Assembly: GCA_020054035.1 (NCBI GenBank)
Contig: JAGVLY010000011.1
Span: 1-42,148, forward strand
Source: Bacteroidia bacterium
GTDB taxonomy: Bacteria > Bacteroidota > Bacteroidia > SXHM01
Length of the DNA: 42,148 bases
Direction of reading: 5' to 3'
Shown here: one piece after another, positions 5,954-39,273 of the stretch
How the letters are laid out: every line of letters starts with the position of its first letter
How positions within the stretch are numbered: position 1 is the first letter of the stretch
The notes under the pieces: model-generated
The model's database searches: none
The model's input: only the letters and a program-made list of their open reading frames with translations
Told to the model about the DNA's origin: nothing
Position numbers and translations under genes: made by a program

Positions 5954-5978
5954 TGTCACCCTGAGCGTAGTCGAAGGG
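5954..5978. repeat. Dispersed 25-bp palindromic repeat, copy 1
   Basis: The segment containing CACCCTGAGCGTAGTCGAAGGG is identical over 25 bp to 24290-24314. Its ends (CCCT...AGGG) are weakly dyad-symmetric. It lies in the intergenic gap upstream of the VOC gene. Similar repeats are common between genes in Bacteroidota genomes. Confidence 0.8.
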
Positions 5979-23131: not shown

Positions 23132-23139
23132 TACATTTG
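23132..23139 (+). promoter_or_regulatory. Candidate -7 promoter element (TACATTTG)
   Basis: A match to TAnnTTTG. A TTGG/TTTC-like sequence about 18 bp upstream is only a weak -33. If used, transcription would start near 23146 and the leader to the ATG at 23581 would be about 435 nt long. Confidence 0.45.
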
Positions 23140-23208: not shown

Positions 23209-23223
23209 GGGGGGGGGGGGGGG
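23209..23223 (+). repeat. Homopolymer of 15 G
   Basis: A run of 15 guanines in an otherwise mixed sequence, 370 bp before the 23581 gene. In a non-coding leader it could alter transcription; it may also be a sequencing or assembly product, as runs of this length are often mis-sized. Confidence 0.85.
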
Positions 23224-23322
23224 TTAAATAGCCCTTGTTCAGGCGCAGTTCAGCGCATTTTTGATTTAAACACCCATTTTCACCATTTCAGCAACAGCGG
23301 TCTTGTAAATGCTGCTTTTTGC

Positions 23323-23537
23323 GCACACAGCCACTTACAGGTGTCAGTGGCAGGTTGCAGCACCCGCACACAGCCACTTACACCTGTAAGCAGCACCTTG
23401 CAGCACCCACACACTATCACTTACAGTAGTAAGTTTACTATTGCGCCAGCCGCACACAGCTACTTAGCCCTGCAAGCAACCCCATGCACCCTGCGCACAG
23501 AGTTACAGCACCCTGTAAGTTGCCCTATGCAGCATCA
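23323..23537 (+). repeat. Five tandem 43-bp degenerate repeats in the leader of the 23581 gene
   Basis: Units start at 23323, 23366, 23409, 23452 and 23495, exactly 43 bp apart. Units 1 and 2 match at about 36 of 43 positions. Units 1, 2 and 4 begin GCACACAG, and most units have TTAC...GTAAG-type arms near positions 13-25 and a TGCAGCACC-type end. Since 43 is not a multiple of 3, the array does not encode a protein repeat. Small hairpins can form in units 2 (CTTAC/GTAAG), 3 (ACTTAC/GTAAGT) and 5 (TTACAG/CTGTAA). Confidence 0.9.
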
Positions 23538-23580: not shown

Positions 23581-24285
23581 ATGGCAGACCCAACATTACC
23601 AACCAACCCTACAACACCTACAACTCCAAAACCCGAAACCGCTAAAACCGGCACCGTGCCCCGCAGCGATGTTGATTTGGGCAATGTAGCAGCCGATGTA
23701 AGCAACAAATGGAATAGCACACCCGGCATTATACTGCTGTGGACAGGCCCGCCCATTTTTGCTGTTAAAGTAACCCAATACAACACTACACTGGGCGAGC
23801 GCAAAAGCACAGGAGGCGGACGCAAATCCATTACCGCGCAACTGAAGATTGGCGACAAAGAAATAGATACCCGCACCGAAAATGTAAAAGGATACTTAGA
23901 AGAAAAATACGGCAAAGCCCTTGCCCCCTCTTACTACCCCGCTTTTGGAATAGTAAAAGAAGGCGACCGCTACAAGTTACCCTTAGACCGCAACAACCGC
24001 CTGCAGGCACTTGACCTGATGGTAGCCGCCATAACTAACGAAGGCTTTGCCGGCAATACATACGGTGATATCTACTGGCAAAACATACGTACCCAATACA
24101 ACGCCCTGCTTACCCAAGCCGAAACAACAGACAGCACCGTATCGGGCAAAGTAGGAACCAAAAACCAACTGAAAAAAGAAATTAAAAAAGTGTTGAACGC
24201 TTTGGTATTAACCATAAAAGCCAACTACCCCGATACCTGGAAAACTGAATTAAGGGTTTGGGGATTTCAGAAGGAGAAGTATTAA
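23581..24285 (+). CDS. Hypothetical protein with Pro/Thr-rich N-terminus
   Basis: A 234-residue protein that I do not recognise. The first ~28 residues are Pro/Thr-rich and low in complexity. The rest is mixed alpha/beta, charged and soluble-looking, with no signal peptide or membrane helix. A C-terminal segment ending TELRVWGFQKEKY seems compact and possibly conserved, which is a guess from its look. The ATG at 23581 is the first residue of a clean frame, and a purine-rich AAAATAAAAACACC precedes it. The long leader with 43-bp repeats and a G15 run suggests regulation at RNA level. Alternative: a Bacteroidota-specific structural protein. No function is claimed. Confidence 0.65.
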   Translation: MADPTLPTNPTTPTTPKPETAKTGTVPRSDVDLGNVAADVSNKWNSTPGIILLWTGPPIFAVKVTQYNTTLGERKSTGGGRKSITAQLKIGDKEIDTRTENVKGYLEEKYGKALAPSYYPAFGIVKEGDRYKLPLDRNNRLQALDLMVAAITNEGFAGNTYGDIYWQNIRTQYNALLTQAETTDSTVSGKVGTKNQLKKEIKKVLNALVLTIKANYPDTWKTELRVWGFQKEKY

Positions 24286-24289
24286 AATC

Positions 24290-24314
24290 TGTCACCCTGA
24301 GCGTAGTCGAAGGG
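24290..24314. repeat. Dispersed 25-bp palindromic repeat, copy 2
   Basis: Identical over 25 bp to 5954-5978. It lies 4 bp after the stop of the 23581 gene and 21 bp before the next ATG. Confidence 0.85.
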
Positions 24315-24335
24315 TATAAATAAAACAAACTCCAA

Positions 24336-26551: not shown

Positions 26552-27028
26552 TCACTCACCCGCCTGCAGCAAAACATTTTTATACAGTTTCTCCGAAATC
26601 CAGAAGTCACTTTTTGCTATTAAAGCATCTATAAGTATTTTCACTTCTGTTATCAGCCCTTTTTCTTTTGCAACTAAAAGCAAACCAATTACACCAATTA
26701 TTCTCACACCCTCATTCATAGCAACTTTACGCCCGGCAGTTTCATCTATCAATAAAAAATCTGCATGAAGTTGTTTGGCTAAAACAATCGCCTCTGCTTC
26801 GCCTTTGTCTAAATCAGCATTCAAAATAACAGTATCTGAAACCGTTTTTTCAATAAGCCAATTACAACTTTTGTAAATAATTAGTTCTTCTTCTGTAAAA
26901 CGTGCAAGGCTCAACTCCTCCCTAACAGCCGAAGGAATTACCACTTCGTGAAACAGTGTTGGCAATAATTGAATTTGATTAATACGGATAAGTGCAATAA
27001 CAGGCGAAGTATCGCTTACAACAATCAT
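26552..27028 (-). CDS. PIN-domain toxin, DUF3368 family
   Basis: A 158-residue PIN-fold nuclease. Acidic residues that could form the metal site are Asp6 (VVSDTSPV), Glu38 (AVREELS), Glu77/Glu79 (DKGEAEAI) and Asp90/Asp95 (ADFLLIDE). It follows the UPF0175 gene with a 4-bp overlap, the usual arrangement of DUF3368-UPF0175 toxin-antitoxin pairs. It is likely an RNase toxin, and its RNA target is unknown. Its last codons touch amidase-tail repeat C. Confidence 0.88.
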   Translation of the reverse strand: MIVVSDTSPVIALIRINQIQLLPTLFHEVVIPSAVREELSLARFTEEELIIYKSCNWLIEKTVSDTVILNADLDKGEAEAIVLAKQLHADFLLIDETAGRKVAMNEGVRIIGVIGLLLVAKEKGLITEVKILIDALIAKSDFWISEKLYKNVLLQAGE

Positions 27029-27258
27029 TTAAGATGCTTCAGATTTTCTATATCTGTATTTAAATCATCAACATCATACTGCAAAGGAATTTTTCGTTTC
27101 CAAAGCTCGTGCTGAAAATCATCACGACTTAATCCTGCGATGCGGGCGCATCTGGGTAATGAAACATTTGCTTTACCATAAAGTGTGCAGGCAAGTTCCA
27201 ATAAAAATTTATCAGCGTTTTTCTCTGTTACAACCGAATCCGGGATTTCAATTTTCAT
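27025..27258 (-). CDS. UPF0175 antitoxin
   Basis: A 77-residue antitoxin of the UPF0175 family, usually a small helix-turn-helix-type DNA-binding protein. Typical segments are FLLELACTLYGKANVSLPRCARIAGLSRDDF and a C-terminal acidic helix DVDDLNTDIENLKHL (here given as two parts). I take the ATG at 27258 (MKIEIPDSVV); the TTG at 27279 would lie inside the -7 promoter element. The overlap with the toxin gene is 4 bp. It is expected to repress its own operon. Confidence 0.87.
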   Translation of the reverse strand: MKIEIPDSVVTEKNADKFLLELACTLYGKANVSLPRCARIAGLSRDDFQHELWKRKIPLQYDVDDLNTDIENLKHLK

Positions 27259-27276
27259 AACACAAAGATAAGTAAA

Positions 27277-27305
27277 CAAATTTAAAGCTCCGCCACCTTA
27301 CCAAA
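27277..27305 (-). promoter_or_regulatory. Candidate promoter of the UPF0175/PIN operon, inside the amidase tail
   Basis: On the minus strand TTTG is at 27305-27302 and TAAATTTG at 27284-27277, with a 17-bp spacer. The TTTG is the coding sequence for the conserved Trp-Phe of the tail, and the -7 TA overlaps the tail's stop codon. The same layout with the same spacing is found at 27981-28009. Confidence 0.7.
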
Positions 27306-27337
27306 CCACGGCAGCGCTTTTTCTAACTGCACAGCCA
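27282..27337 (-). repeat. Amidase-tail repeat B
   Basis: On the minus strand it encodes LAVQLEKALPWFGKVAEL and a TAA. About 40 of 47 bases match the real amidase 3' end at 27991-28037, and the similarity goes on about 20 bp past the stop codon. It begins directly after the stop of the second PIN toxin gene. Confidence 0.9.
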
Positions 27338-27339
27338 AT

Positions 27340-27711
27340 TTATTTAGCCAGTTTAAGTCCTTTAATAAACTTAAAATCTTTAGTGTTAAAGGTAAGCAGC
27401 TTGGCATTGTGTTCAATGCAGGTGGCTGCTATAAGGGCATCGGGCATTTGCAACCTGCGTTGGGGTGTGTTATATAAATCAACCAATTGTATTGCCTTTT
27501 CTCCTGTATACTTGCTAAGTGGTATAACAGAAAAAATATCAGTAACCATTTCAACAGCTCTTTTCTTTTTTTTATCAGTAGCACCCACTTTAAGCTCAAT
27601 CAAACTAATAACCGATATACCCAATTGTTTTTGGTATTTCATCAAAAGAGTATCAGCTATTTCATTACCTCTTATTGATGCAATAAAAATATTGGTATCG
27701 GCTATTACCAT
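27340..27711 (-). CDS. vapC: PIN-domain toxin, VapC family
   Basis: A 123-residue VapC-type PIN nuclease. The four acidic metal-binding residues are Asp5 (VIADTNIF), Glu39 (SLIELKVG), Asp91 (MPDALIAAT) and Asp112 (FNTKDFKF). It is preceded by its antitoxin gene with a 7-bp overlap. VapC toxins cut tRNA or rRNA at specific positions, and the target is unknown here. The gene ends right at amidase-tail repeat B. It is not closely related to the 26552 toxin, so two different TA pairs use the same flanking sequence. Confidence 0.9.
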   Translation of the reverse strand: MVIADTNIFIASIRGNEIADTLLMKYQKQLGISVISLIELKVGATDKKKKRAVEMVTDIFSVIPLSKYTGEKAIQLVDLYNTPQRRLQMPDALIAATCIEHNAKLLTFNTKDFKFIKGLKLAK

Positions 27712-38573: not shown

Positions 38574-38735
38574 GAGGTTTGTAAAGCAAACTTATAACCT
38601 TTTATTTCTTCTGCAATAGGGTTGATAACCATTTTATTAACCGTTAGCGGTTGAAATCAGAATCTGATGGTTATTTTCTTTTCCGTGAGTTGCATTTTTT
38701 GGCAATTTTTTATTTTTACAGGAAAATTCATTCCC

Positions 38736-39095
38736 ATGACTGACGATAAAACAGCCCTTCTTGAAAAAGAAAATACCCGTCTTAATCGTATTATAGAAGC
38801 TTTATTATTCGAACATGAGCGTTTAAGACGAGGTTATTCCGTTTCCGGAAACAGAAATGCACCCGAATAGTTCGGGTATTCCGTTGCAGAAAAAGGTAAC
38901 GGAATAACTGACGTTGGGAGCCCTGCTGCAGAAAAAGGCAACGGAATAACCGAAGTCTTGAGACCTCTTCCCGAAAAAATTGACCCTACATCAGGCGTTG
39001 TTTATAAGCTCAAAAAAACTAAGGACAATGAAAAAGGGAAAAATAAAGCGCAGCGGAAGCATCAACAGCGCAAAGCTGCTCATCCACTTCCATAA
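38736..39095 (+). pseudogene. Broken small DNA-binding-type gene, in-frame amber codon, 42-bp repeats
   Basis: From the ATG at 38736 the frame codes for 44 residues (a charged helix: LLEKENTRLNRIIEALLFEHERLRRG in two parts) and stops at TAG 38868-38870. The same frame then runs open for 74 more codons to a TAA at 39093-39095. This includes two 42-bp repeats (38883-38924, 38925-38966) that encode VAEKGNGITDVGSP and AAEKGNGITEVLRP. The end overlaps the start of the 39028 gene in another frame. I think one gene was damaged by the amber codon and a frameshift near 39025. The dyad CCCGAA-TAG-TTCGGG is at the amber codon. Confidence 0.55.
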
Positions 39096-39273
39096 CAAAA
39101 GCAATAGTGACCATCCAACACTCCGCAAACTCAACGGCTTATCCGAAGGCGGCTTGGGAAAGATGATTATGTCGCTTACCCGAAGAGGTTTAATAGTGCG
39201 CGATGGCTGGCAGAAGTTTGCTTTAACGGCAAGCGCGAGGAAGTTGATGAGTGAGGCGTTACACCTCCTCTAA
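39028..39273 (+). CDS. Winged-helix-like DNA-binding protein (or C-terminal part of a broken gene)
   Basis: An 81-residue basic protein from the ATG at 39028 (MKKGKIKRSGSINSAKLLI). The segment HPTLRKLNGLSEGGLGKMIMSL, then TRRGLIVRDGWQKFALTASA, looks like a winged-helix/MarR-type DNA-binding unit. An upstream TTG at 38980 would extend it by 16 residues. It could be the intact C-terminal half of the gene discussed for 38736-39095. A strong terminator (39331-39360) follows. Confidence 0.6.
   Translation: MKKGKIKRSGSINSAKLLIHFHNKSNSDHPTLRKLNGLSEGGLGKMIMSLTRRGLIVRDGWQKFALTASARKLMSEALHLL

Follow-up and report, generated by a model that had tools for sequence, protein, structure and literature searches.

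Tandem DNA repeats that are private to their locus, helically phased and placed beside the gene of the protein binding them are typical of the plasmid Rep-iteron and parC-ParR systems, in which the repeats step by roughly 11–22 bp. A different arrangement is found in REP/BIME elements, which are dispersed intergenic palindromic repeats with a linked trans-acting gene, that of the RAYT transposase. As for BOX elements, we know of no linked protein family. BOX of Streptococcus pneumoniae is a composite dispersed repeat made of end modules and variable tandem internal modules, with some copies at the 3′-ends of genes (PMC3049150). Within Bacteroidota, the BrickBuilt MITE of Porphyromonas gingivalis is a dispersed intergenic minisatellite with a leader, a tail, 23-nt units and inverted-repeat ends (PMC4596501). 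In ToxIN, a type III system, short tandem repeats lie just upstream of one gene and are private to each cluster (PMC8860590).

The arrays described here, together with the gene beside them, point to a previously undescribed protein-DNA system in Bacteroidota; a partial literature search found no published description of the family or its arrays, which does not by itself prove novelty. Like iterons and parC, these arrays are tandem, private and phased, and they adjoin the gene of a presumed binder; unlike them, they step by 42 bp, belong to a chromosomal single-gene module and have matching arrays elsewhere in the genome, and the protein has no similarity to Rep, ParR or ribbon-helix-helix proteins. 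Dispersed intergenic palindromic repeats and a linked gene recall REP/BIME and RAYT, but the family protein is predicted to be helical, with no Pfam hit, no Y1/HUH similarity and no conserved HUH motif in its alignment, and the gene-linked array stands on the 5′-side only, with its 42-bp step fixed. BOX does not consist of private arrays that share a conserved period. BrickBuilt shares the phylum and the dispersed intergenic arrays with leader and tail, whereas its units are 23 nt long, its ends are inverted repeats and no gene family is linked to it. The private tandem repeats upstream of a gene are also seen in the type III systems (ToxIN, CptIN, and TenpIN), from which the present loci differ in that no terminator between array and gene and no RNA-type signature was found, and in that the protein is predicted to be all-helical; it has no match in Pfam, NCBIfam, PADLOC or PDB that would place it in the ToxN, CptN or TenpN families.

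The Array and Its Neighboring Gene

The window, a stretch of 42,148 nt analyzed as a whole, is a contig (C30) of a 1.87-Mb assembly that is 68% complete (genome G000; the locus is L045). An initial annotation had proposed that five repeats with an exact period of 43 bp and hairpin arms precede the gene at 23581, and this array is indeed present (Table 1). All its steps are 43 bp, and its lag-43 self-match score of 53 is far above chance, the shuffled sequence giving 9–12. TRF calls the first 2.4 copies (23322–23425, period 43, score 131), units 3–5 being the more diverged part. The paired arms with differing loops that had been noticed in units 2, 3 and 5 are all there, and the palindrome content of this array taken alone only marginally exceeds that of permuted units (by column; z 1.7, p 0.09). 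The earlier view that no standard repeat class fits holds. No Rfam model matched the array above its gathering score, the only signals being sub-threshold microRNA noise. At BLAST sensitivity, no second copy was found elsewhere in this incomplete genome. The TAnnTTTG element to which the annotation pointed exists as TACATTTG at 23132–23139; such elements are not enriched in leaders of the family (26 of 72 loci against 21.4 expected).

Table 1. Positions in the window of the array units and of the adjoining gene.
Feature	Position	Strand	Description
Array unit 1	23322–23364	+	43 bp; arms CCACTTACA/TGTCAGTGG with one mismatch
Array unit 2	23365–23407	+	43 bp; palindrome CTTACA-CC-TGTAAG at 23377–23390
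Array unit 3	23408–23450	+	43 bp; palindrome ACTTAC-AGTA-GTAAGT
Array unit 4	23451–23493	+	43 bp, degenerate; CTT..AAG only
Array unit 5	23494–23536	+	43 bp, degenerate; palindrome TTACAG-CACC-CTGTAA
Gene of the array-associated family	23581–24285	+	234 aa; two helices of ~54 residues; C-terminus WGFQKEKY

Several other repeats are found in the window. A run of 15 G at 23209–23223, between the upstream gene and the array, is possibly a phase-variable tract or an assembly artefact. Another 42-bp tandem repeat of 2.2 copies (38887–38978) lies mostly between the ORFs 38667–38870 and 38980–39273. Just 3′ of the gene, at 24290–24325, lies a dispersed repeat, TGTCACCCTGAGCGTAGTCGAAGGGT…, which has many copies in all six of the same-genus genomes searched and a 25-bp exact match inside the window at 5954–5978. 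A few kb downstream (26552–27711) are DUF3368 and PIN-domain genes, probably part of toxin-antitoxin loci, and these are not conserved beside homologues of the array-linked gene.

The protein gave no family match above noise in Pfam, NCBIfam, PHROGs or PADLOC, and neither a sequence profile search of PDB nor a structural search of PDB and BFVD, covering solved and viral structures, returned a significant hit. Its AlphaFold2 model is confident and almost all-helical, contains two long helices (pLDDT 91 and 95), and has no recognizable DNA-binding fold; the N-terminus, modeled at low confidence, is probably disordered. In the first alignment of the family, the last eight residues are invariant, and no catalytic motif occurs among the invariant residues. 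A nucleic-acid signal in this invariant 3′-end of the gene was considered and rejected, since the codons vary and the conservation is therefore at the protein level. The net charge of the family averages +6, with conserved K/R residues.

The gene is missing from 59 relatives, six members of its own genus among them. Scanning genome contigs yielded 40 homologues, in records of Flavobacterium, Bacteroidales, Cytophagales, and Ignavibacteria. The gene is infrequent and patchily distributed: it is present in 6 of the 396 genomes from the phylum, in 15 of 400 from the genus of G138, and in 11 of 242 from the order to which G220 belongs, with up to seven copies per genome. Generally, no neighbor gene is conserved, flanks being shared mostly by orthologous loci only; no tRNA was found in the family loci checked, and gene-free equivalents of one family-gene site exist in related species. 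An origin from a phage or plasmid was rejected, as no match was found in phages, plasmids or viral contigs.

A Fixed Step with Private Unit Sequences

The homologues have the same kind of leader. Tandem arrays with lags of 40–44 bp occur upstream of the gene in 62 of the 71 non-redundant homologous loci that have at least 140 bp of upstream DNA. Most of the other nine are loci at a contig edge, fragments of the gene, a gene that is interrupted (L067), or arrays visible at twice the period alone; L039 is the clear exception. In the upstream region of L067, a family gene is truncated by an insertion that carries a RAYT-like transposase gene and REP-like repeats. The gene-linked arrays mostly consist of 3–9 units directly upstream of the gene, and the distance from array to ATG ranges from about 5 to 390 bp.

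In a search confined to lags near 42, the 225 steps were distributed as 40 (1 step), 41 (29), 42 (157), 43 (36), and 44 bp (2), and the 43-bp step of the window falls inside this distribution. The modal step is 42 in 41 loci, 43 in eight, and 41 in seven. The mean of 42.04 bp corresponds to 4 × 10.51 bp, i.e., four helical turns, so that the units form helically phased tandem sites adjoining a gene, as in iteron/parC-type systems. When the lag was left unrestricted (15–129), the best value was 41–43 or twice that in nearly every locus, and none of the gene-linked arrays found had a step of three, four and a half, or five turns. That periods of 41, 42, and 43 all occur bears out the suggestion of the initial annotation that the constraint is non-coding.

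Arrays of this period are rare away from the gene. TRF periods of 41–43 were found at most 700 bp upstream of the gene in 52 of 72 loci and once elsewhere in the same ~350 kb, and random stretches from six genomes, ~2.2 Mb in total, contained one clear intergenic 42-bp array without a 21-bp substructure. Separately, every Bacteroidota genome sampled, whether or not the gene is present, has frequent degenerate arrays in intergenic DNA that repeat every ~21 bp (two helical turns) and are often palindromic: TRF gave 9–18 rows of period 20–22 per sample, with examples at L136, L152, L154, L158, L269, L270, and L294 from the samples of G672, G000, G506, and G826. G672 also has a true 42-bp array (L153, 15640–15866; about five units) that directly precedes a small HTH (XRE-like) gene and whose unit differs from that of the array linked to the family gene in this genome.

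While the step is retained, the sequence of the unit is replaced rapidly. The mean unit similarity is 0.88 when the proteins are at least 80% identical and falls below that to about the level of shuffled sequences (0.37–0.46), and even paralogues within one genome have different arrays. At L012 and L024, the proteins are 80% identical and the arrays are unrelated, the leader being otherwise partly alignable; in the ortholog group of L009, one species (L058) lacks whole units. The step is kept across the phylum while the unit sequence is replaced, and the spacing is thus under constraint. A covariance model made from the five units of the window would be expected to find no relatives, since the unit sequence is private to the locus and only the period is conserved.

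Signals Probably at the DNA Level

The initial annotation had suggested an RNA leader with a tandem binding module, a reading that the strand-equal palindromes and the position of a promoter-like element do not support. Collectively, the arrays exceed column-permuted units in palindrome content (Wilcoxon p 1e-7), and 22 of 56 do so individually at p ≤ 0.05; palindromes are common rather than universal, and most arrays taken singly are not significant. A weak common palindromic core, TTACAATTGTAA, scores 5.0–5.1 against at most 4.3 in permutations. The folding z of the arrays averages −3.04 on the plus strand and −3.12 on the minus strand (Wilcoxon p 0.73), and this equality suggests a signal of DNA, as RNA hairpins, which tolerate G-U pairs, would differ between the strands. 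Mismatches in the arms are G-T rather than A-C at a ratio of 83:56, a mild excess that derives mostly from GC-rich loci with composition uncontrolled and is not used as evidence here. Intrinsic curvature was rejected as the cause of the arrays, for it is slightly above that of permuted units (mean z 0.67, p 0.002), an effect that is too small.

A TGGCA-N6-TTG element with the −24/−12 spacing of sigma54 promoters (consensus as in PMC12316311) is found in 13 of the 72 leaders, where 0.5 would be expected, and lies 51–80 bp before the start codon; it is absent from the leader in the window and from clades other than Flavobacterium. Sigma54 is encoded in 19 of the 19 genomes checked. In 12 Flavobacterium loci, the element sits between the array and the gene, and the array would accordingly be outside that transcript. 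Hairpins resembling terminators are not overrepresented between array and gene (6 of 55 loci; mean dG −2.08 observed and −1.60 shuffled), and none is listed for the locus of the window.

Arrays without the Gene

Unit-matched arrays without the gene were found in six genomes: in G672 and, by a combined search, in G766, G526, G506, G138, and G343. Their identity to the gene-linked array of the same genome is 91% in G672, 83% in G766, 84–85% in G506, and 74% in G526. In the near-complete genome G672, the 91%-identical copy is ~180 kb away from the gene-linked array, and weaker copies exist at two further places. Units of the gene-less arrays match the gene-linked array of their own genome or of a close relative better than those of more distant genomes, as is seen in G672 and G506. 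No dispersed copies were found of array L087, one of the seven in G1055. When six array types were searched, matches occurred in none of 36 gene-less Flavobacterium relatives and in 8 of 15 gene-bearing genomes; this is a weak control of gene dependence, as the queries came from gene-bearing genomes, the units are private to lineages, and eight candidates per genome were scored.

The gene-less arrays are intergenic, mostly at the 3′-ends of unrelated genes (those for enolase, an aromatic amino acid lyase, an IMPDH/GMP reductase-domain protein, a PpiC-type peptidyl-prolyl isomerase, dehydrogenase E1, and FG-GAP proteins), and occur in either orientation relative to them, which also speaks against an RNA leader. 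Copies that follow GMP reductase-like and PpiD-like genes in G138 and G506 have mixed unit types and share, beyond the units, leader and tail sequence with the terminator-like hairpin AAAAGCCACAGTGAAGTGGCTTTTTG. By this shared leader and tail, they are composite elements resembling BOX (PMC3049150) or BrickBuilt (PMC4596501). L020, which is the gene-linked copy of this type of array, does not show the shared tail. At L205 (13836–15303), a gene-less array borders on an Rhs C-terminal-like fragment and on small hypothetical genes, a setting like that of a variable cassette site.

What the Arrays May Be

The reading we favor, to which we give about an even chance, is that the arrays are a DNA platform bound by the neighboring protein, which would regulate its own gene and act at dispersed arrays where these are present. 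What the data show is the association with the gene, the spacing, the privacy of the units, the strand symmetry, and the dispersed copies; the binding, the regulation, and any chromosome-level role of the protein are what we infer. A protein that is basic on average and has two helices of ~8 nm would form a symmetric assembly on each 42-bp unit; the assemblies would share one face of the DNA helix and touch their neighbors, and this contact would fix the step. Such co-facial sites and neighbor contact are suggested by the four-turn step, gene-linked arrays with steps of three, four and a half, or five turns not having been found. Bound upstream of its own promoter, the protein would regulate its own gene, and its wider role may be to bind gene-less arrays for chromosome marking, organization, or maintenance of the element. 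What stands against this favored reading is that L012 and L024, with their unrelated arrays, are awkward for strict sequence recognition, that the protein has no recognizable DNA-binding fold and no significant structural match, that the palindromes of most single arrays lack significance, and that dispersed arrays were not found in the source genome or for L087 in G1055. A tentative, rather doubtful extension is a self-contained element, in which the helical protein recognizes arrays mainly by geometry and marks or spreads matching intergenic arrays over the chromosome, each paralogue having its private array; if recognition relies mainly on symmetric sites every four helical turns, the unit sequence can turn over freely.

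It is unlikely, in our view, that the arrays are REP-, BOX- or BrickBuilt-like repeats copied between intergenic sites, with the gene as a trans-acting factor beside a resident copy, even though the gene-less arrays in six genomes, the common leader, tail and terminator-like sequence of the mixed-unit copies in G138 and G506, the patchy distribution with up to seven paralogues, the lack of conserved neighbors, and the gene-free equivalents of one site are what this would produce. The predicted long helices show no nuclease or transposase fold and the invariant residues no catalytic motif, L020 does not show the tail, dispersed copies were not found for some arrays, and mobility leaves the fixed 42-bp step unexplained. 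This explanation overlaps with the DNA platform and may be another side of the same thing. Neutral minisatellites that by chance lie in long intergenic regions would account for the changes by whole units and the fast turnover of the unit sequence, but they are hardly credible given a step of 42 ± 1 bp held across the phylum while the sequence is replaced, and given how rarely arrays of this kind turn up in other parts of the same DNA, where they are all but absent.

The gross layout, 3–9 short private tandem repeats upstream of a gene of ~230 codons, is that of a type III toxin-antitoxin-like module, in which the array would be transcribed into a repeat RNA that is bound or processed by the protein as the toxin; this seems quite unlikely, because the palindromes are strand-symmetric, terminator-like hairpins are not enriched, a promoter-like element lies 3′ of the array in 12 Flavobacterium loci, the array-to-ATG distance varies, gene-less arrays exist, the repeat length is fixed whereas that of ToxI varies between clusters, and the predicted all-helical fold has no significant PDB match. 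Alternatively, another regulator of the host, e.g., a sigma54 enhancer-binding protein, may use the array as its upstream activating platform, and the neighboring protein would be only the regulated product. The excess of TGGCA-N6-TTG and the presence of sigma54 in all genomes checked agree with this, but only Flavobacterium loci have the motif whereas arrays are found throughout, and a common regulator is not expected to have differing sites at paralogues in one genome, so that we regard it as very unlikely.

A protein family for which the searched libraries offer no annotation is linked, throughout the phylum, to arrays that conserve their spacing and not their sequence, and this pairing makes the function directly testable in cultured Flavobacterium species. 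If the protein binds the arrays, it would offer a clear example of how helical geometry can guide recognition, the private sites of each paralogue being open to pairwise tests, and possibly a new chromosome-organizing or selfish element in Bacteroidota.
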